Source: Sulfurimonas hongkongensis (GTDB lineage: Bacteria > Campylobacterota > Campylobacteria > Campylobacterales > Sulfurimonadaceae). Taken from it: 64,000 nt of DNA. The notes under the pieces are model-generated. The model had not been told where the DNA came from. It was given only the letters and a program-made list of their open reading frames with translations, and did no database searches. Numbering within the stretch: the stretch's first letter is position 1; each line of letters starts with the position of its first letter. The position numbers and the translations under genes are program-made. The stretch covers positions 1 to 64,000 of the forward strand of contig NZ_AUPZ01000010.1 in the NCBI RefSeq assembly GCF_000445475.1, read 5' to 3'. Below, piece by piece: positions 9,879 through 22,642 of the stretch.

Positions 9879-10054
9879 TTGAGTTGGATCCTGAATCAAA
9901 ACAAGAGAATCGCTTTTTGCTATGCAAAAATGTTTCTTTAGAGTTCAGGATGACGGAGAATGTTCAGGATGACGGAGAATGTTCGGGATGACGCGTGTCC
10001 CGTCATTCCGTGCTTGACACGGAATCTAGTTTATAGACTAATCAGAGGGTTCAA
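9879..10054 (-). repeat. Family A element (copy A4)
   Basis: Reads on the plus strand GGATCCTGAATCAAAACAAG, the inner TTTTTGCTATGCAAAAA, three TTCAGGATGACGGAGAATG-type units, CCCGTCATTCCGTGCTTGAC and GGAATCTAGTTTATAGACTA, then ATCAGAGGGTTCAA (left tip). It fills most of the 371-bp gap before the DUF2254 gene. The remaining bases, 9707-9878, are AT-rich and hold nothing I can name. Confidence 0.85.
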
Positions 10055-10077
10055 TTAATACCTTGAGGGTTTAAAAA

Positions 10078-11412
10078 ATGAAAATACAAATTCTTAAATA
10101 TTGGGACAGTATTCGTTCTAGTTTTTGGTTTATCCCAATTACTATGGCTATAGGGTCTATGGTATTGGCATTTGTAGCTCTCTCTATTGATATATCAATG
10201 ACGGAGTGGTTGCGTAGTGCTTTTAACTGGAGATTTACCGGTAGTGTGGAGGGTTCTAGTGCTGTGCTTGGAACTATCGCTGGCTCAATGATTACTATCA
10301 CCGGTGTAGTGTTTTCAATGACACTAGTCGCACTCTCTCTTGCTTCATCTCAGTTTGGTCCTCGTATGCTTCGTAACTTTATGCGAGACACTACAACGCA
10401 GGTGGTTCTTGGTACATTTATTGCCACTTTCATCTACTCTTTAATCGTTTTGCGTAATATACGACACACAGAAGAAACTATCGTTTTCACCCCACATTTT
10501 TCTGTTTCACTCGGTGTCACACTCGCGGTAGTAAGCTTAGGAGTGCTGATTTATTTTATCCATCATGTTTCTATTTCTGTTCAGGCTAACGAAATTGTGA
10601 TGCGGGTAAGTAAAGAGTTACTTGAGGGCATTGAAAGCTTGTTTTTAGAAGAAAAAGAAGCCGAGCAAGACAGTACTGAGATGCCAAGAGGATCCTATGA
10701 TAATGGCTTTTTAAAAGTGTTTGAGCGGGATGCTTATCCTGTTGATGCCACCCAAGATGGATATCTACAGTTTATTGATTATGATGCTTTGTTGACGTTG
10801 GCAAAGCAAGAAAATGTTGTCTTGGAGCTAAAGAGACGACCAGGACACTACGCTGTAGCTGGACGACCACTAGTGATGGTTTGGCCTGCTGAGCGAGTGG
10901 ATGACCAACTTATAGTTCAACTTATTGCCGCATTTACTCTAGGCAATCAGCGAATCCCACGCCAAGATATAGAGTGTACAATAAACCAATTGGTAGAAAT
11001 CGCGGTACGAGCTCTTTCTCCGGGGATAAACGACCCATTTACGGCGATGACATGTGTAGATAGACTAGGCTCTGCACTATCTCGTTTGAGCGAGCGTAAG
11101 ATGCCATCACCCTATCGTTATGATGATGAGGGTGAACTTTGGTTGATTACACCTGTTGTAACTTTTTCAGCAATTACGGACGCAGCATTTGACCAAATCA
11201 GACAATATGCTCACTCAAGTGCTGCAGTAACTATTCGCTTGCTAGAGACGATTGCTGTAGTTGTAGAGTCTGCAAATCGCGCAGAAGATAGGGCTGCTCT
11301 TTTGCGTCATGCGGAGATGATTACGAAAGGAGCGCATAAAGGTTTGTTTGAAGCACAAGATCGCCAAGAGGTTGAGCAACGCTACGGAGTGATAATTCAG
11401 CTACTAAAGTGA
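10078..11412 (+). CDS. DUF2254 family membrane protein
   Basis: 444 aa. Four predicted membrane helices lie in residues 15-175 (FWFIPITMAIGSMVLAFVAL; MITITGVVFSMTLVALSLAS; VVLGTFIATFIYSLIV; VSLGVTLAVVSLGVLIYFI). A soluble C-terminal domain holds the family's SPGINDPFTAMTCVDRL motif. The function of DUF2254 is unknown. GAGGG lies 8 bp before the ATG. The gene is clearly richer in G and C (codons such as CGT, GCG, CGG and CGA are frequent) than its neighbours and is flanked by oppositely oriented family A repeats, which suggests acquisition from elsewhere. Confidence 0.9.
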   Translation: MKIQILKYWDSIRSSFWFIPITMAIGSMVLAFVALSIDISMTEWLRSAFNWRFTGSVEGSSAVLGTIAGSMITITGVVFSMTLVALSLASSQFGPRMLRNFMRDTTTQVVLGTFIATFIYSLIVLRNIRHTEETIVFTPHFSVSLGVTLAVVSLGVLIYFIHHVSISVQANEIVMRVSKELLEGIESLFLEEKEAEQDSTEMPRGSYDNGFLKVFERDAYPVDATQDGYLQFIDYDALLTLAKQENVVLELKRRPGHYAVAGRPLVMVWPAERVDDQLIVQLIAAFTLGNQRIPRQDIECTINQLVEIAVRALSPGINDPFTAMTCVDRLGSALSRLSERKMPSPYRYDDEGELWLITPVVTFSAITDAAFDQIRQYAHSSAAVTIRLLETIAVVVESANRAEDRAALLRHAEMITKGAHKGLFEAQDRQEVEQRYGVIIQLLK

Positions 11413-11434
11413 TCCTCTTTTGACATTTCAATGA

Positions 11435-11603
11435 GATTCCGTGTCAAGCACGGAATGACGATGAGAAACATCATCTTGAACATTCTCCGTCATCCTGAAC
11501 ATTCTCCGTCATCCTGAACTCTAAAGAAACATTTTTGCATAGTAAAAAGCGATTCTCTTGTTTTGATTCAGGATCTCTTTTGATAATTGCTCAGAGCATT
11601 CAA
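11435..11603 (+). repeat. Family A element (copy A5)
   Basis: The GATTCCGTGTCAAG palindrome, two or three CATCCTGAACATTCTCCGT units (19 bp, the same linker as A4 and A7), the inner TTTTTGCATAGTAAAAA palindrome (one base off), GATTCAGGATCTCTTTTG and the right tip ATTGCTCAGAGCATTCAA. It is oriented opposite to A4. Confidence 0.85.
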
Positions 11604-14141: not shown

Positions 14142-14149
14142 AAAAAAGT

Positions 14150-14163
14150 TCCTGACACCCCTA
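14150..14163 (-). repeat. Family C motif, 3' of left cassette
   Basis: On the minus strand AGGGGTGTCAGGAAC. Related copies lie at 14690-14702 (AGGGGTGTCAGGCACC, with GGTG/CACC as a small palindrome) and 15095-15104 (AGGGTGTCACTC). The three copies bracket the two paralogous cassettes. Confidence 0.5.
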
Positions 14164-14177
14164 TTTTTCTTTTTCTG

Positions 14178-14282
14178 TTAGAAGTAGTCTGCTATCTTCC
14201 AGTGGTTCTTATATGCTATAAATGCTAATAATCCTGCTAGTATGAATCCAACAGTATATATTAAAATGCCAATGCTACTCAT
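14178..14282 (-). CDS. 34-aa single-span membrane protein (left cassette, second gene)
   Basis: Reads MSSIGILIYTVGFILAGLLA then FIAYKNHWKIADYF and stop: one hydrophobic helix followed by a basic/aromatic tail. It shares the tail AYKxHWKIADxF and the same position with the 33-aa protein at 14710-14811. Its ATG overlaps the end of the 83-aa gene by 8 bp (ATGAGTAG), so it should be translated by coupling. No known family is recognised. Conservation of frame, size and tail between two copies is the evidence that this short frame is real. Confidence 0.72.
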   Translation of the reverse strand: MSSIGILIYTVGFILAGLLAFIAYKNHWKIADYF

Positions 14283-14526
14283 TTCTTAAATCCTTAATCA
14301 GTAATTCTAATTTATTCAATTTCAAATATGCCAACACAATTCCAAATGATAAAAAAAGGAAAGGCACAAATAATAATAAGCTAACAATAAAGGCTCTATC
14401 GAATATAGATAAACCAAAGCCACCAATAGCACCACTTACAGCCATTAATGTAAATAACTTCTTATATACTATATCAGCCTCTTTAGCAATTATATCGGCT
14501 TTATCTTTTCTCTCCTGTAATATCAT
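14275..14526 (-). CDS. 83-aa two-helix membrane protein (left cassette, first gene)
   Basis: Charged N-terminal helix (ERKDKADIIAKEADIVYKKL), two membrane segments (about 24-42 and 47-66) and an amphipathic end (LKLNKLELLIKDLRNE). It is paralogous to the 80-aa protein at 14804-15046: shared KDKxDIIxKxADIxxKKL, a middle G..S..IV pattern and the terminal KLxxLxxxxKDLxNE. The ATG lies 6 nt after a TATAAT box (14533-14538 on the minus strand) with no Shine-Dalgarno, so the message is probably leaderless. No family is recognised. A membrane-acting toxin, a bacteriocin-like pair or a stress protein are all possible, and I would not choose between them. Confidence 0.75.
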   Translation of the reverse strand: MILQERKDKADIIAKEADIVYKKLFTLMAVSGAIGGFGLSIFDRAFIVSLLLFVPFLFLSFGIVLAYLKLNKLELLIKDLRNE

Positions 14527-14532
14527 GTAGAG

Positions 14533-14538
14533 ATTATA
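14533..14538 (-). promoter_or_regulatory. -10 box 6 nt before the ATG of the 83-aa gene
   Basis: TATAAT, then six bases (CTCTAC), then ATG. Transcription would begin at or next to the start codon. The paralogous gene has the same arrangement at 15053-15058. Confidence 0.55.
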
Positions 14539-14657
14539 CCAAAATAGGAAAAATAATAGAAAGAAGAAATTTATTTCAAGATAACTTGCATTAGGTTAAC
14601 CAAAAAAAGAGTAATAGTAAGGAAAATAAGGATTTGAGAGCATCAAGCAAGCTAAGG

Positions 14658-14672
14658 TAAAACTAAGTTTTA
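14658..14672. repeat. Perfect inverted repeat between the two cassettes
   Basis: TAAAACT-A-AGTTTTA, a 7-bp perfect palindrome around one base, just downstream of the right cassette in the direction of transcription. It could be an operator or a weak terminator stem. Confidence 0.4.
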
Positions 14673-14689
14673 TTCCCATAATGGCATAA

Positions 14690-14702
14690 TGGTGCCTGAC
14701 AC
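14690..14702 (-). repeat. Family C motif, between the cassettes
   Basis: GGGGTGTCAGGCACC on the minus strand, with GGTG..CACC as a small hairpin. It lies 8 bp after the stop of the 33-aa gene, the same relative place as the copy at 14150. Confidence 0.5.
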
Positions 14703-14709
14703 CCCTTTC

Positions 14710-14811
14710 CTAAAAAATATCAGCTATCTTCCAATGTTTTTTATATGCTATATAAGCAACTATAGGTGCAATTAAAAGTGCAAGTGGGAAAAGAAATTGT
14801 AAATCATTCAT
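14710..14811 (-). CDS. 33-aa single-span membrane protein (right cassette, second gene)
   Basis: Reads MNDLQFLFPLALLIAPIVAY then IAYKKHWKIADIF and stop. One membrane helix and the tail AYKKHWKIADIF match the 34-aa protein of the left cassette. The ATG overlaps the stop of the 80-aa gene by 8 bp (ATGAATGA), exactly the overlap length of the other cassette. No known family. Confidence 0.72.
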   Translation of the reverse strand: MNDLQFLFPLALLIAPIVAYIAYKKHWKIADIF

Positions 14812-15046
14812 TATATAAGTCCTTTAATTTTTTTTGTAGATCTCCAAGTTTTATTAAATTGGTAGATATACCTAAAACAGCTATAAAGAAAGCTATTGAC
14901 GATAAAATTGTAACAATTGGATTATCAACTGCTTCACTCATCCCATAAACCCATGTACCTCCAGCTATTGCTAAAAATGCTATAAGCTTCTTGTTTGCAA
15001 TATCAGCTTTTTTGTTTATGATATCCATTTTATCTTTTATCTCCAT
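14804..15046 (-). CDS. 80-aa two-helix membrane protein (right cassette, first gene)
   Basis: Charged start (MEIKDKMDIINKKADIANKK), two hydrophobic segments (about 20-36 and 42-62) and an amphipathic end LGDLQKKLKDLYNE. It is the paralogue of the 83-aa protein. The second Met (residue 7) is not taken as the start because the KDK before it is conserved in the paralogue. The ATG is 6 nt after TATAAT (15053-15058) and has no ribosome binding site, so it is a leaderless candidate. Function unknown. Confidence 0.75.
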   Translation of the reverse strand: MEIKDKMDIINKKADIANKKLIAFLAIAGGTWVYGMSEAVDNPIVTILSSIAFFIAVLGISTNLIKLGDLQKKLKDLYNE

Positions 15047-15094
15047 GTCAGAATTATATCATTTTTTTGTAACTTGTTAGTTTTTTATAAAAGA

Positions 15095-15104
15095 GTGACA
15101 CCCT
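15095..15104 (-). repeat. Family C motif, 5' of right cassette
   Basis: AGGGTGTCAC on the minus strand, upstream of the right cassette promoter. It is shorter and less well matched than the other two copies. Confidence 0.35.
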
Positions 15105-15124: not shown

Positions 15125-16912
15125 CTACTTTTTTATCTCACCACTTATAATCATTTTTATCTTTTTTACAAAGTCTTCTAGTTCGTCTTCTCTAATACGA
15201 AGTAGTGCATCGAAGTCTAGTTGGGCTATGTGGTTTACTACTTGGTTATAAAACTCTTTATCGCTTAGTAGTCTTGTGGCGATTGCTATGTACTCTTCTT
15301 GTGACGAAGCAATAAGTTCATCTAACCCTAGTCTTCTCATCACTGCACTTGCTAGTCGGTTGTAGGCTTTTGTACCTTCGTATGTAACAACAGGTTTTCC
15401 AACATGCAGAGCATCCATTATTGAATTGAATCCACCAAATGGATATGAGTCAAGACATATGGTTGAAGAGTTTAGTTTATCCATGTAGTCATTATTAGGC
15501 ATGGGTCTATTAACTTCAGTTTCTTCCCCTAGCTTTGTTTTTAAAAATCTTGATGTAGTTAAAAATGATTGGTTTCTTATAATAGCACTTCCTGGTACAA
15601 ACATAAACTTAGGATTTATTCCGCTAACTTCATTACTTTGCGTATTTATAGCTTCTAGTGCATCTAGTATTTGACTATTTATCTTATAGAAACTACCTAA
15701 AAATACTATCTTTTTTTCATCAAAAGTATTTACACTGCTTGGTATGTAGTTATTTTTTATAGGGATAGCTCCTATGCCTTTTATCAGTACAAGCTTTTCA
15801 TCATAGTTTTCTTCTGCTAAGTCGGCTCTCTCTGTATCTTCGCCACCTATAAAGAAGTCTATTGTAGAACCAAAGGTGCTTACAGGGTGTCCATACATTG
15901 TAGCTTGTAGCGGAGCAATTCTTACATTTGAGAGGAATCGGCTCTCTGTATCCATCCCTATATCTGCATATAGAACTAAAGAGTAATCATTAACCGATAT
16001 CTCTGAAACATTTATAGTTCCAGTTTGTTTTTCTCTTTTAATAAGAATGATTTTTTTAAATATTGACTCATCAATATCTTTAGCGTTGTCATCGCCTAAA
16101 GCGAGAAGTGTTAACTCAAAATGCTTTGAAAGTGCCTCAATATATGGAAAAAGTGATCTATACACGGCACTGCTTGATTTCCATCTTGAAGAAACTATTG
16201 CAATTTGAGGTTTTTTCTTCTTAGGTTTGTTTTTGATATCTATACCTATTAGACTCTGCATTGAAGAGTTAAAACTTCGTTTATAGTTTCTATCTAAAAT
16301 ATTATCGATATAGGTACAATTAAAATATCCCGTACTACTAGTTAGAGTGATGTTTATTTTTTTAGGTACATGAAGCAGATGCTTACTCATTTTAGTTTGC
16401 AACTCTCTTGTTATGGGATGGTTATCATTCATAAACACTCCATACCAGTTACTAACTATATTTTCTAAAGACTCTTGTTTGTAAAGCTCTTTGTATAGAA
16501 CTTCTACACTACACTTTGCATTGTAAAGCACTAACAATTTAACGAGACTGTTTGGTGCTTCTTTTAATATTTTCACAAAACAATCAGTAGAACCAAAAGA
16601 AGATATTTCAAAAATATTTGCAATAGTCCTGTTTACCAACATGAGTCTAGAGATTAAGCCTTCATCTTCTATAGTGTAGCTCTCTTGCGTTAAGTAAAAG
16701 CCAATATTTTTGCATAAAGTGTTGATAAATATATATGTTTGCTTATCTATTTGTAAAAAACAGTTTTTACTATCACTTAAGGCAGAGAGGATTTCAATCA
16801 TTTTTACTGTAAGTTCATCATAGTTGTTATTTAGATAAAGTTTCATCCACTCTCTATTGTCAATCCTACACTCTTGTAAAGTCAACTCTCTGATATCATA
16901 TTTCTTACTCAT
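15125..16912 (-). CDS. OGT/SPINDLY-like (GT41-type) protein glycosyltransferase
   Basis: 595 aa. Residues 1-230 are mostly helical with no clear family. Residues 240-590 resemble the catalytic part of O-GlcNAc transferase/HMW1C-like enzymes: IAPLQATMYGHPVSTFGSTIDFFIGG, KIVFLGSFYKIN, FMFVPGS, and CLDSYPFGGFNSIMDALHVGKPVVTYEGTKAYNRLASAVMRRLGL, which is the UDP-sugar site of the family. Such enzymes glycosylate proteins in the cytoplasm. The gene begins 2 bp after the methyltransferase gene and both lie just downstream of the RTX/S-layer-like gene, so that surface protein is a natural candidate acceptor (inference). Confidence 0.82.
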   Translation of the reverse strand: MSKKYDIRELTLQECRIDNREWMKLYLNNNYDELTVKMIEILSALSDSKNCFLQIDKQTYIFINTLCKNIGFYLTQESYTIEDEGLISRLMLVNRTIANIFEISSFGSTDCFVKILKEAPNSLVKLLVLYNAKCSVEVLYKELYKQESLENIVSNWYGVFMNDNHPITRELQTKMSKHLLHVPKKINITLTSSTGYFNCTYIDNILDRNYKRSFNSSMQSLIGIDIKNKPKKKKPQIAIVSSRWKSSSAVYRSLFPYIEALSKHFELTLLALGDDNAKDIDESIFKKIILIKREKQTGTINVSEISVNDYSLVLYADIGMDTESRFLSNVRIAPLQATMYGHPVSTFGSTIDFFIGGEDTERADLAEENYDEKLVLIKGIGAIPIKNNYIPSSVNTFDEKKIVFLGSFYKINSQILDALEAINTQSNEVSGINPKFMFVPGSAIIRNQSFLTTSRFLKTKLGEETEVNRPMPNNDYMDKLNSSTICLDSYPFGGFNSIMDALHVGKPVVTYEGTKAYNRLASAVMRRLGLDELIASSQEEYIAIATRLLSDKEFYNQVVNHIAQLDFDALLRIREDELEDFVKKIKMIISGEIKK

Positions 16913-18361: not shown

Positions 18362-21187
18362 TTAAGCGATGTCTGCAGTTGTAATTACTCCACCATCATT
18401 AATCATACCGATAAGTTCGATATTGTCAGCTTGAACACCATCAGCATCACCTGTTACTAAGTAAGCGTATGATTCATAAACTACAGTACCTGTACCGTAA
18501 GCAGTTCCAACATATGTAGTAGAAGACTCATCATTGATAACTACAACATATTTTTCGCCGTCTTGTGCACCAAGGCCTGCATCTATAAATGCTGCTACTT
18601 CGTCATTAATTGTATCTTGAGTGTAGCCATTTTTTGTATCTACTACGAATGTAGTAATTTTTGCTGAACCAGTTCCATCACTACTATCTGCAAATACATA
18701 TACACCTTTATCAGTTGCATCAGCTACTTTTGCAGCATTTGCAGCAAGACCAACTTTTGCAGCAGTAGAGTCTATACCTGTTAGGTTGTTAAAGTTAACA
18801 AGCTCTTCACCTGTACCTGTTGCAAGCTCAACATAATCAACTCCGCCGTTGTTTGAAAAGTTGAAGATAGCTCTATCATCAACTGCATCATTACCCGTCA
18901 ATAGAACGAAATCATCAAATGAACCACCTGTTACAGTTATATCTGTAGAATCATCGCTGTTATCAGTTACATCAAATGTTACTGTTTGGCTATCTCCTAG
19001 TTGAACAATATCAGTTAATTTGTTCTCTGTTACTATATCACTACCACCATTTTCAAGTTTGAATGAAGCTCCAAGAGTACCATCTCCGATTGTGTATTGA
19101 CCAGCTGTTGAAGTAACATTGTTAAGATTTACATTTAAGTCATCAGTTATAGCACCAGCTACAACAATTTTATCAGAACCTACTGTGAAGTCTTTAACAG
19201 TTGCCAATGAGCTAGCACCAGCTTGAATATTTACAGTGTCTTCACCAGCACCTGTTGTGACAGTTGCTGATTCATTAGCTAGTATGATAACTGAGTCATC
19301 TAAGTCACCTAGTTTGTTTGTAGAAGTATCAAGTAATGCTACATCTTTTAATCTCAATGAGCTTGAAAAATCTGTAGCAGTTAATGCAGAACCACCATTT
19401 TTAAGTGTAATGCCATACTCATTTGCTTCAACTGTACCGACTGTAGCTGCATCTGCGAAAATATAAGCACCCGCTGTTGGAGCATCTACATCTGTAACAT
19501 CAAACGCAACAGTTAATGCCGCTGTAGGTGCAGTAAGTTCAATAATATCTGTACCCATTACAAAGTCTTTTACTACAACGCCTGTAAGATTGTCATCAAG
19601 CTTAATAACATCCGCGCCAGCACCTAGAGTTACAGTATCGTTTCCTGCAACAGTTATAGTGTCATCACCAGCACCTAAGTCGATTGTAGCAGCGTTAACA
19701 GATGAAGTTACAGTATCGTCACCGTTACCTGCAGTCACCTCTGTTCCAGCTTTTGCAGCAGTAATGTCGATAGTGTCATCGCCGTCACCTGCTTGAACAT
19801 CATAGATTTGAGTTAAAGCTGTAGTAATAGTGTCATTACCTTTACCACCAACGATAGTGATGTCGTCATGTGCACCAGCGATAGCACCGATTGTTAAATC
19901 ACCAGTTAAGTTTGTAGCAGCGATTACTTGATCTGCTGCAGCTACTGTGATTGTAGTAAATTCGATATCTTCACTACCTTGAACAACCATAACATCTGTA
20001 GTTGCATCAAAAGTCACATCATTAACTGACATTGTAGTCTCATCAAAACCATTTTCATCTAAGTCTAGGTCAATTGCTTCATCTGGAGTAGCTTCAACGA
20101 TGATAGTACCTACTGTTGCGTCTGCAATGATAGAGTTTGCTGTTTGAGCTTCAGAGATATTTAATACTAATGTACCTTGAGTGAATGCAGTTTTATTTTC
20201 ATCACCATGGTCAAGAGCTACTGTTAAGTTACCTGCAGCTAAATCTGAAGTTAGGTCTAGTTTTGTGTTTTCATTCAGTGTGATTCCAGCAGCACCTGCG
20301 ATATTAGTTGATAACTCAACTGTATCTACTTTTGCTCTTGAGAAGTCATTACCAGCAGTGAAAGCTGTTGCAGCTAAAGTCTCGATTTCAAGAGTTGTTG
20401 TACCTGTAGAAGTTGAAGTGATAAGTGTACCGTCATATTGTCGAACAGTAGCAACTAAAGTACCAGACAATGCAACACCGTCAGTAACAACTAAAGTAAC
20501 ATCTTTATCGCCTGTTAGGAACATTTTCTCAGCGTTGATATTAGTTGCATCTGAAAGTGTAATTTCACTATCTGCAGTTGTAGCATTGATAGTGATGTCT
20601 AACTCAGCATTATCTGCAGCAACACCAGCATCTAAAGTTAAGTCACCAGCAACATTTAGAGTTACAGCATCGTTAGCACTTGCTAAAGTTGCTAAAGTTA
20701 CAGTTTTCTCAGCTGCTACAGTTGCATCATAAATATCAGCTCCTGCTGCTTGACCTGTGAGGTTTAAGTTAGCTGAACCAGCGTCAACAGTTACAGTATC
20801 TCTTGTTCCTGAAGCTAATGAAGTGATATCAAGGGTAGCAATATTGTCTTTTGCAACAATTTTTGCAACATTTAATGAGTTTGCACCAATTATAGTAGCA
20901 GTACCACCAGCGATGTCTGTGTTAAAGTTAGCTACTTGAGCATTACTTACATTTGTAAAGTCAAAACCTGTAGCCACATATTTACCATCAATGTTTAGTG
21001 TTTCAACATTTTGGATTCTTGCTTTTGTAGCGTTTGTATTTACAGAAGCGTTAAGTACATCACTATCGTCTGTTGATGAATCAAGAATAATGTCATCATC
21101 TTGAAGTGAACCAAGCTCAGTAGCGTCAAATAGGTCATTTTTATCAGTACCGTTGATTACTTCATCGTCAACACTTTTAGTAAGCAT
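18362..21187 (-). CDS. Large Asp/Thr-rich RTX/S-layer-like surface protein
   Basis: 941 aa from the ATG at 21187: acidic, rich in Ala/Thr/Asp, no Cys. It starts MLTKSVDDEVINGTDKNDLFD with no Sec signal. Near the centre are hemolysin-type calcium repeats (GGKGNDTIT, AGDGDDTID, AGNGDDTVT, LGAGDDTIT, LGAGADVI), and further GAGEDTV-like units follow. The rest is repeated beta-rich sequence like RsaA/Campylobacter S-layer proteins. This points to type I secretion and a surface layer or adhesin. A GTG 22 codons upstream (21253) has AAGGAG before it, but that extension would add the only two Cys, so I prefer the ATG, preceded by GAGGG. A strong terminator follows. No secretion genes are in the window. 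Confidence 0.82.
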   Translation of the reverse strand: MLTKSVDDEVINGTDKNDLFDATELGSLQDDDIILDSSTDDSDVLNASVNTNATKARIQNVETLNIDGKYVATGFDFTNVSNAQVANFNTDIAGGTATIIGANSLNVAKIVAKDNIATLDITSLASGTRDTVTVDAGSANLNLTGQAAGADIYDATVAAEKTVTLATLASANDAVTLNVAGDLTLDAGVAADNAELDITINATTADSEITLSDATNINAEKMFLTGDKDVTLVVTDGVALSGTLVATVRQYDGTLITSTSTGTTTLEIETLAATAFTAGNDFSRAKVDTVELSTNIAGAAGITLNENTKLDLTSDLAAGNLTVALDHGDENKTAFTQGTLVLNISEAQTANSIIADATVGTIIVEATPDEAIDLDLDENGFDETTMSVNDVTFDATTDVMVVQGSEDIEFTTITVAAADQVIAATNLTGDLTIGAIAGAHDDITIVGGKGNDTITTALTQIYDVQAGDGDDTIDITAAKAGTEVTAGNGDDTVTSSVNAATIDLGAGDDTITVAGNDTVTLGAGADVIKLDDNLTGVVVKDFVMGTDIIELTAPTAALTVAFDVTDVDAPTAGAYIFADAATVGTVEANEYGITLKNGGSALTATDFSSSLRLKDVALLDTSTNKLGDLDDSVIILANESATVTTGAGEDTVNIQAGASSLATVKDFTVGSDKIVVAGAITDDLNVNLNNVTSTAGQYTIGDGTLGASFKLENGGSDIVTENKLTDIVQLGDSQTVTFDVTDNSDDSTDITVTGGSFDDFVLLTGNDAVDDRAIFNFSNNGGVDYVELATGTGEELVNFNNLTGIDSTAAKVGLAANAAKVADATDKGVYVFADSSDGTGSAKITTFVVDTKNGYTQDTINDEVAAFIDAGLGAQDGEKYVVVINDESSTTYVGTAYGTGTVVYESYAYLVTGDADGVQADNIELIGMINDGGVITTADIA

Positions 21188-21478
21188 ACAACCCTCACCC
21201 AAAAAAAAGCCTACCTTACAAACCCTAAATATCTCAATCTTCAAAATAATCACCCCTAAACTCTCCTTCTCACCTGCAAATCATCAGCAAATAAAAAAAC
21301 TATTTACTCTTTTTTATGCTTTTAAACATATAAAAACAAAATATAAAAATTATAGAAGAGTACTTGTATATGGGCTTTAGTAGGTAGTTTTATGCTAAGA
21401 TTTTATAGTTGTTTTTGTCTGTAATTTGTTAGTTGATTTATGATGGTTTAATAAAAAATCAAGAAAATTTTAGTGGTC

Positions 21479-21502: not shown

Positions 21503-22642
21503 CTAAAAAAGTCTTGCTGCACAAGAAGCGGCAGAGTGTAGAGACTCGTTTGAGAGATGAGCATATCTTTGCGTCATCTTTGCTGTTTTGTGTCCTAAAA
21601 GAACTTGTACTTCATAGAGACTTCTTTTAGCATTAACAAGTGCAGAGGCGTAGGTGTGTCTTAGGTCGTGCATTCTAACCTCTGGCAATCCTGCTTTTTT
21701 TCTTGCAGTATTCCAACTATTGTAGATGGTGATGTAGGGTTTATTGGTTACTTTAGAGGGAAAGAGATATTTGGACTCTTTGGGAATTTGTTTTAGCAGA
21801 GAGTGTAGTTCTTGCGTTATGGGTAGTACTCTCTTTTTACCATTTTTTGTGATTGGGATTGTCCATAGCATCTGAGTCTCATCAAAGTGACTCCACTGGG
21901 CTTTTAAAACTTCTCCTCTTCTTGCTCCACTAAGTAGAAGCATGGGGATGATGTATTTTAGGTGTAGATTCTCACTTACATTTACTGCGGATATAAGCCT
22001 TTTTGTCTCTGCTTTTGTTAAAAATCTTTCTCTCTCATTGTTCTCTTGGAAGTGTTTTATCCCTGTGACTGGGTTGTAGGGAGCTTGTAGGAGTTCATAC
22101 TCATATGCAAGAGTATATGCTTGAGAGAGAAAAACAAGGAGCTTGTTTGCGGTTGCGGGTTGGAGCTTCTTTTTGCTAAGCATCTCTGAATGAAGCTTCA
22201 TAAGATCTACTTTTTTGACATTTTGCATGGTTGTAGAGCCTAGAGTTGGCAAAATATGGTTTCTAAAGATGCTCTCATTTGCCGCATAGCTTTTGATGTG
22301 CTTTTGTATGTATGGAAGATAAAAGTCATGAAAAAAATTTACTATAGTAAGAGAGTCTGACTTCTCTACCATTATAGAAGTTACGTTGTCTTGTATATGC
22401 TCTTTTTTTAGCAAAACTATAATTTCTCTAGCCTCATTTGCTGAGAGTATATCTGCACAACCTATCTTACGTGAGGTTCTTTTTGCATTTTTGGAGTAAC
22501 TAAAGTAAAAAGTTTTTCTACCTGTTTGTCTTACTTCTAAACTAAAACCGCTTAATTTTATGTCGTAATAGACCTCTTTTGTCTTTGTTTGGGGCGGTTC
22601 TACTTTTGCTATGAACCTGCTGGTGATGTTTACTTTTGGCAT
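21503..22642 (-). CDS. Tyrosine recombinase, phage/island-type integrase
   Basis: 379 aa. The N-terminal arm-binding domain (FSLEVRQTGRKTFYFSY, DUF4102-like) is followed by a core-binding SAM-like domain (about 95-180) and the catalytic domain with Arg in LLLSGARRGEVLKA, HDLRHTYAS (His, Arg), LGHKTAKMTQRYAHL (second His and the nucleophile Tyr). The catalytic set is complete. AAGGA lies 6 bp before the ATG. No tRNA, excisionase, relaxase or phage gene is beside it, so it is an orphan integrase of a decayed or very small island. Confidence 0.93.
   Translation of the reverse strand: MPKVNITSRFIAKVEPPQTKTKEVYYDIKLSGFSLEVRQTGRKTFYFSYSKNAKRTSRKIGCADILSANEAREIIVLLKKEHIQDNVTSIMVEKSDSLTIVNFFHDFYLPYIQKHIKSYAANESIFRNHILPTLGSTTMQNVKKVDLMKLHSEMLSKKKLQPATANKLLVFLSQAYTLAYEYELLQAPYNPVTGIKHFQENNERERFLTKAETKRLISAVNVSENLHLKYIIPMLLLSGARRGEVLKAQWSHFDETQMLWTIPITKNGKKRVLPITQELHSLLKQIPKESKYLFPSKVTNKPYITIYNSWNTARKKAGLPEVRMHDLRHTYASALVNAKRSLYEVQVLLGHKTAKMTQRYAHLSNESLHSAASCAARLF

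Follow-up and report, generated by a model that had tools for sequence, protein, structure and literature searches.

Introduction

RAYTs are common, mostly low-copy "domesticated" transposases. TnpA-REP (RAYT) genes and their repeats have been described together as REPtrons and TIRtrons, and one group of the enzymes, TnpAY1 subclass 2.1, corresponds to Bertels group 1 and includes most TIRYTs (PMC6006769, PMC3733652, PMC8266576). The main survey identified no REP for this subclass (PMC6006769), and inverted repeats with the motif GGGGWSAS have been reported around many such genes (PMC3733652). In the open-access literature searched, no description was found of protein-coding cassettes, passenger genes or toxins between RAYT repeats.

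A stretch of 64,000 nt from Sulfurimonas hongkongensis, referred to here as the window, contains two small units, each composed of a gene A and a gene B for predicted membrane proteins. Related units form arrays that resemble REPtrons and TIRtrons in having a class 2.1-like HUH/Y1 gene between short, G-rich, near-palindromic repeats, and the array motif GGGTGTCA is similar to GGGGWSAS, the motif reported for the surroundings of TIRYT genes. The arrays differ from REPtrons in that their repeats are in direct orientation, bound promoter-bearing protein-coding cassettes in dense rows, and are not scattered genome-wide in hundreds of copies. Unlike canonical REPs, the array repeats AAGGGTGTCAGGCACCATT lack the GT[AG]G (GTAG or GTGG) hairpin foot. 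The HUH/Y1 TnpA-REP gene stands beside the repeats in related arrays, but not in the genome of the window. The arrays can thus be described as a REPtron/TIRtron-like system with passenger cassettes, the cassettes being the new part. The probability that the A/B unit is a cassette of a RAYT-associated array is estimated at about 0.85, and it is rather probable that the window holds a small remnant of such an array. If RAYT repeats bound mobile cassettes, they would offer a second way, besides integrons, to line up swappable small genes.

Organization of the two units

The elements of the locus follow one another in the order REP0 - unit 1 - REP1 - box 2 - unit 2 - REP2 (Table 1). An initial annotation of the same DNA had read four frames in two minus-strand units, all of which were recovered where it had placed them. 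The motifs it had listed as common to each pair also stood: A1 and A2 are 41% identical and have KDKxDIIxKxADI, KKL and KDLxNE in common, while B1 and B2 are 42% identical with AYKxHWKIADxF in common. The two A/B overlaps are indeed of equal length, though of differing sequence, and both A genes start 6 nt after TATAAT, as had been noted. The pattern TGNTATAATN6ATG occurs twice in the 64 kb, exactly at both A starts, against 0.09 occurrences expected in shuffles. REP1 is the only exact GGTGTCAGGCACC copy in the genome of the window, and a related locus (L068) carries GGTGTCAGGCACTC at the place of the shortened REP0. The initial annotation lacked the three same-strand repeats bounding the units; it also made no mention of cassette arrays, of further gene-pair families built alike or of a link to a RAYT transposase.

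Table 1. Features of the A/B locus, numbered from the first nucleotide of the window
Feature	Positions	Strand
REP0, shortened repeat GGGTGTCACTC upstream of unit 1	15093-15103	minus
Extended -10 element TGATATAAT, 6 nt before A1 ATG, predicted leaderless promoter	15053-15061	minus
Gene A1, 80 aa, predicted two-helix membrane hairpin	14804-15046	minus
A1/B1 overlap ATGAATGA, 8 nt	14804-14811	minus
Gene B1, 33 aa, one predicted span, C-terminal KKHWKIADIF	14710-14811	minus
REP1, GGTGTCAGGCACC directly after unit 1	14691-14703	minus
Box 2, TAACCTAATGC, conserved left-end motif of cassettes	14588-14598	minus
Extended -10 element TGGTATAAT, 6 nt before A2 ATG	14533-14541	minus
Gene A2, 83 aa, predicted two-helix hairpin (AlphaFold2 pLDDT 89.5)	14275-14526	minus
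A2/B2 overlap ATGAGTAG, 8 nt	14275-14282	minus
Gene B2, 34 aa, one predicted span, C-terminal KNHWKIADYF	14178-14282	minus
REP2, degenerate repeat GGTGTCAGGAACT after unit 2	14147-14159	minus

A and B as a gene pair

The initial annotation had asked whether B homologues always stand beside a partner of about 80 aa. B homologues with conserved residues were found, and in the loci fetched from Sulfurimonas and other Campylobacterota A immediately precedes B in 51 of 55 B matches, a rate drawn from A-enriched loci, since these had been selected for holding A. Among the 43 units with settable starts, the A/B overlap is exactly -8 in 39, and it is kept across six sequences (ATGAATGA, ATGAGTAG, ATGGATAA, ATGAGTGA, ATGTTTGA and ATGGGTAG). 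In 30 of these 43 units the ATG of A follows a TATAAT-like element at a distance of 6 nt, and in three more at 7 nt; a Shine-Dalgarno-like sequence precedes A in none of the 43. This combination suggests that A transcripts are probably leaderless; the conserved "leader" noted earlier thus keeps its position and is re-read as an extended -10 element of a leaderless mRNA.

A comparison of substitution rates had also been proposed. The 53 pairs of relatives whose A proteins are 70% identical or more yield pooled dN/dS values of 0.085 (A) and 0.104 (B), thus about 0.1 in both frames, a pattern that indicates purifying selection on both genes. The distance matrices of A and B correlate (r = 0.73), and none of 2000 shuffles exceeded 0.16; as the A/B pairs are not independent, this value gives a direction and not a p-value. 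Judged by these distances, A and B diverge together. A chance origin of the window units is rejected on the grounds of homologues of the same plan in many genomes, a dN/dS near 0.1 and the -8 overlap kept through six sequences. It is practically certain that A and B form a real, co-selected gene pair. Of the "real two-component membrane system" claimed at the outset, the co-inherited membrane-protein genes are borne out, and a complex between their products is likely.

Distribution and age of the two subtypes

The A profile matches 23 of 200 genomes of the same family, mostly from the same genus, and a broader profile matches 17 of 397 genomes of the phylum. The 15 A loci from named records are metagenome-assembled genomes (MAGs) of Sulfurimonas, Sulfuricurvum, Helicobacteraceae and other Campylobacterota. 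The distribution is patchy, with several copies possible in one genome; many relatives are MAGs, in which the arrays are often cut at contig ends. Relatives of A were found neither in plasmids nor in phages nor in IMG/VR, and a phage or plasmid origin has been rejected for this reason.

The window proteins gave no significant match in Pfam, PADLOC or PHROGs, which agrees with the initial annotation, where no family had been recognised, and an A homologue had no match in NCBIfam. For the small proteins of the arrays as a whole, a known family was rejected, as searches of Pfam, NCBIfam, PADLOC and PHROGs returned weak matches alone; the best of them, DUF6722, concerned one neighbouring family and fell below its cut-off. 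The A/B units are self-contained gene cassettes, members of a family that is widespread and as yet without a name.

The two units had been described earlier as a duplicated cassette. Units in two other genomes (G109 and G069) have an A gene 93% identical to that of unit 1, which also has a close relative in a third genome (G133); for the A gene of unit 2, units at two further loci (L041 and L044) reach 87% identity. Both A subtypes occur within one array in G133. Since the relatives of A1 and A2 recur elsewhere, and together in G133, local duplication is rejected; these comparisons indicate that the window units are old subtypes set side by side.

Conservation and predicted topology

The conserved columns of A lie at its N-terminus (ERKDKADIIAK..D..YKK) and those of B at its C-terminus (K.HWKIAD.F), and the membrane segments of both proteins are variable in sequence. 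According to the positive-inside rule, A is predicted to be N-in/C-in and B to be N-out/C-in. Residues 2-6 of B are free of K and R in 39 of 39 sequences, and its last 13 residues contain 2.5 K/R on average. AlphaFold2, run with 23 sequences, models A2 as two long helices (3-40 and 46-82; mean pLDDT 89.5). This confident hairpin has no Foldseek match in the PDB at E <= 0.001, so the fold gives no function.

A hairpin paired with a single-span protein might be a small accessory complex that modulates a larger membrane enzyme or transporter, in the manner of CydX or CioY. Small single-span subunits do occur in the phylum, CioY being one of 34 aa (PMC11955535), and the cytoplasmic ends of A and B are the most conserved, as would be expected for docking to a partner. 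Such a role is nevertheless unlikely, as a patchy, multi-copy and cassette-borne distribution is unlike that of a core-complex subunit and no constant third gene stands beside the pair.

Repeats and cassette arrays

The cassette measures about 430 bp and consists of an extended -10 element, A, B and then, just after B and on the same strand, a short repeat that is nearly palindromic (GGTGTCAGGCACC or a variant). Relatives carry such cassettes in one-directional rows; G159 (L037), for instance, has four units within 2.3 kb, and L041 has four within 1.9 kb. GTGTCA occurs on the same strand within 100 nt after B at 29 of 53 distinct sites, and TGTCAGGCA was found on the opposite strand after B at none of the 53; about a third of the units have no recognisable repeat. 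When all cassette families are taken together, 45 of 74 cases show a same-strand repeat no more than 220 nt upstream, and none shows one on the opposite strand. Of 75 cassettes, 20 have a second motif, TAACATAATGC or a variant of it, at 51-85 nt ahead of the ATG, about 0.006 being expected per cassette.

The exact 11-mer GTGTCAGGCAC is present in 55 of 200 genomes, where it clusters in the arrays, with 0-15 copies per genome among the matches listed; a reversed control pattern is nearly absent. Spacers are more alike within a genome than between genomes (mean alignment scores of 18.1 and 8.6; shuffle maximum 10.7). No Rfam family matched the arrays, and a known RNA element has been rejected on this basis. 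At two places (L068:8338-8537 and L081:2966-3370) an A gene without its 5' half is joined to the spacer/promoter, with B intact.

Other gene pairs of the same plan

The arrays also hold other two-gene families, in which gene 1, about 50-85 aa long and containing hydrophobic spans, precedes a gene 2 of about 25-39 aa. The pairs start 5-7 nt after a TATAAT-like element, and a repeat often follows gene 2. Two loci, L070 and L068, present rows of different two-gene cassettes for small membrane proteins between same-strand repeats, including at least four gene 1 families with one architecture.

The family designated II (MAKLDEIKE...) matches 38 of 200 genomes, spread over 19 of 47 genera, and had no match in plasmids or IMG/VR. 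The genome of the window is among the 38: its pair (L121, G000:C19:16758-16982) comprises a gene 1 of 76 aa and a gene 2 of 29 aa, with TATAAT 6 nt before the ATG. In the loci inspected, family II is always followed by a small frame with one span, and TATAAT is present in several of them. Profile comparison relates families II and IV (96%), links I and IV weakly (89%) and does not convincingly link I and II (47%); on these scores the gene 1 families are likely to form one superfamily. Pairs of 50-85 aa and about 30 aa thus constitute a large set of membrane proteins across Campylobacterota, for which the libraries searched hold no convincing family model.

The RAYT-like transposase of the arrays

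The arrays often contain or adjoin a gene that matches NF047646 (REP_Tyr_transpos) with an E-value of 2.4e-18 and 66.4 bits, under the cut-off of 80. Its product has the motifs NHYH and YIERNP and a C-terminal helix-turn-helix-like stretch, features that fit TnpAY1 subclass 2.1 (PMC6006769). Same-strand copies of the cassette repeat flank this RAYT-like gene. Twelve genomes have both A/B and a RAYT-like HUH transposase, and in 9 of them the two are no more than 5 kb apart, whereas random placement gave on average 0.09 such genomes and at most 3; the distances were entered by hand from search tables. No class 2.1-like RAYT was detected in the genome of the window, just a different Y1 variant of 466 aa. 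With this gene missing and one exact repeat left, the window array is probably orphaned.

Two near-identical A/B cassettes occur 9 kb apart in G115. Their identity extends from about 60 nt before TATAAT to just after GGTGCCAGGCACCATTTT, the flanks beyond being unrelated, and the next cassette, of another family, opens with an upstream segment that is almost identical. When unit 1 of the window is compared with units in three other genomes, the similarity reaches from about 40 nt ahead of the promoter as far as the stop codon of B, past which they have just the repeat in common. The same arrangement might have arisen differently, if the A/B pairs were accessory chromosomal genes, the repeats ordinary REP-like insertions downstream of them, and the arrays shuffled by homologous recombination between repeats, without RAYT transposition. 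The homogenised spacers within genomes, the several units without a repeat and the truncated A genes fused to spacers all agree with recombination, and RAYT transposition is deduced rather than observed. The sharp ends of the G115 cassettes between unrelated flanks, the strict same-strand orientation of the repeats and a RAYT proximity far above chance nonetheless make this explanation doubtful.

IS200/IS605-type enzymes move DNA between two hairpins. By analogy, the RAYT would cut the single-stranded hairpins of the repeats and then move or copy the cassettes, and the odds lean slightly towards its moving them. Repeat-bounded cassettes beside an unusual transposase hint at an undescribed way to collect small gene modules.

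Comparison with integrons

Rows of small one-directional cassettes, with repeats that are alike within and different between genomes, recall integrons, and the units might belong to a Sulfurimonas integron, either as its cassettes or as an attC cluster without an integrase. Homologues of the integron integrase above the curated TIGR02249 cut-off do exist in Sulfurimonas, and the likeness of spacers within a genome recalls attC sites. The arrays differ, however, in having no adjacent IntI, a RAYT gene inside them and a promoter for each cassette, which is unusual for integron cassettes. Their spacer is the short GGTGTCAGGCACC repeat, in which inspection by eye found no attC-like RYYYAAC...GTTRRRY ends. 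As integrase and units are on different contigs in the genome of the window and about 0.9 Mb apart in G115, with no integrase at the array head, an integron origin was rejected as very improbable. The genome of the window has integrase homologues at G000:C14:45368-46312 and G000:C7:5447-6430, one with an internal TGA, and several other Sulfurimonas genomes also have one.

Neighbours of related transposases in other bacteria

Ten plasmid records match the G159 transposase, and nine of them were examined as a pilot, with no background rate for the neighbours. Classical toxin-antitoxin modules stand close beside the transposase in R. rubrum (PhD-Doc), Iodobacter (HipBA) and two Skermanella (MazEF). 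In R. rubrum, GGGGTCTGACC bounds the series [DUF6447][PhD-Doc][RAYT]. On the plasmid of Pseudoalteromonas sp. THAF3 (L128/L136), the RAYT match comes after seven direct copies of GGGTCAGAGTT, and an Imm26 gene lies in the same repeat array as the transposase; the copies bound Imm26 and hypothetical genes, between a SpvB/TcaC-type gene and the Y1 transposase. The P. aeruginosa plasmid NZ_CP116719.1 (L131) has toxin/immunity genes close beside the transposase and ten copies of GGGACAGATTT, in both orientations, running through them; small toxin-domain and immunity genes are interleaved there with class 2.1-like Y1 transposases. The Legionella and Sporomusa records show no toxin-antitoxin or immunity genes beside the transposase, and the Acetoanaerobium record is unannotated. 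These few cases, read with no background rate, point to conflict genes as typical cargo.

Possible functions of the A/B pair

The mRNA would start at the ATG of A, and B would be made by translational coupling through the 8-nt overlap. In the membrane, A would adopt an N-in/C-in hairpin and B would lie as a single N-out/C-in span, and the two may join in a membrane complex; that they bind each other is likely. One partner might then disturb the membrane and the other restrain it. Of the roles considered, one in toxin-antitoxin-like action or in immunity or defence against phages is the likeliest, though a tentative proposal, put at somewhat less than even odds. Like toxin-antitoxin and toxin-immunity pairs, A and B are two small, coupled, patchily distributed and multi-copy genes. 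They are adjacent, overlap and diverge together, and would be co-expressed; several neighbours of class 2.1-like RAYTs elsewhere are classical modules of this type. In contrast to the known systems, neither A nor B has a significant sequence match to a known toxin or antitoxin family, and both are membrane proteins, which sets them apart from most type II pairs.

A broader proposal, held with still less confidence, is that class 2.1 RAYTs run an integron-like, integrase-independent cassette system that builds conflict-gene arrays in several phyla. The transposases would move or capture promoter-bearing modules between short single-strand hairpins, and the conflict genes would comprise toxin-antitoxin and toxin/immunity modules as well as membrane pairs of the A/B type. 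If this were true, it would provide a function for a large group of supposedly domesticated transposases.

Surroundings of the locus in the window

A gene of 595 aa (15125-16912, minus strand) adjoins the array. It has no match in 80 genomes of the same genus at E 1e-60, and a comparison with empty sites through this flanking gene failed for that reason; its absence from these genomes suggests a strain-specific island. No tRNA gene was found within the 64-kb window. Two other frames lie near the array on the minus strand, one of 379 aa (21503-22642) that reads like a phage-type tyrosine integrase and one of 963 aa (18362-21253) that is repetitive and Asp-rich. On opposite strands, small frames that read VIPCLTRNL and FRVKHGMT (9960-10058 and 11397-11517) hint at a dispersed palindromic repeat of another kind.
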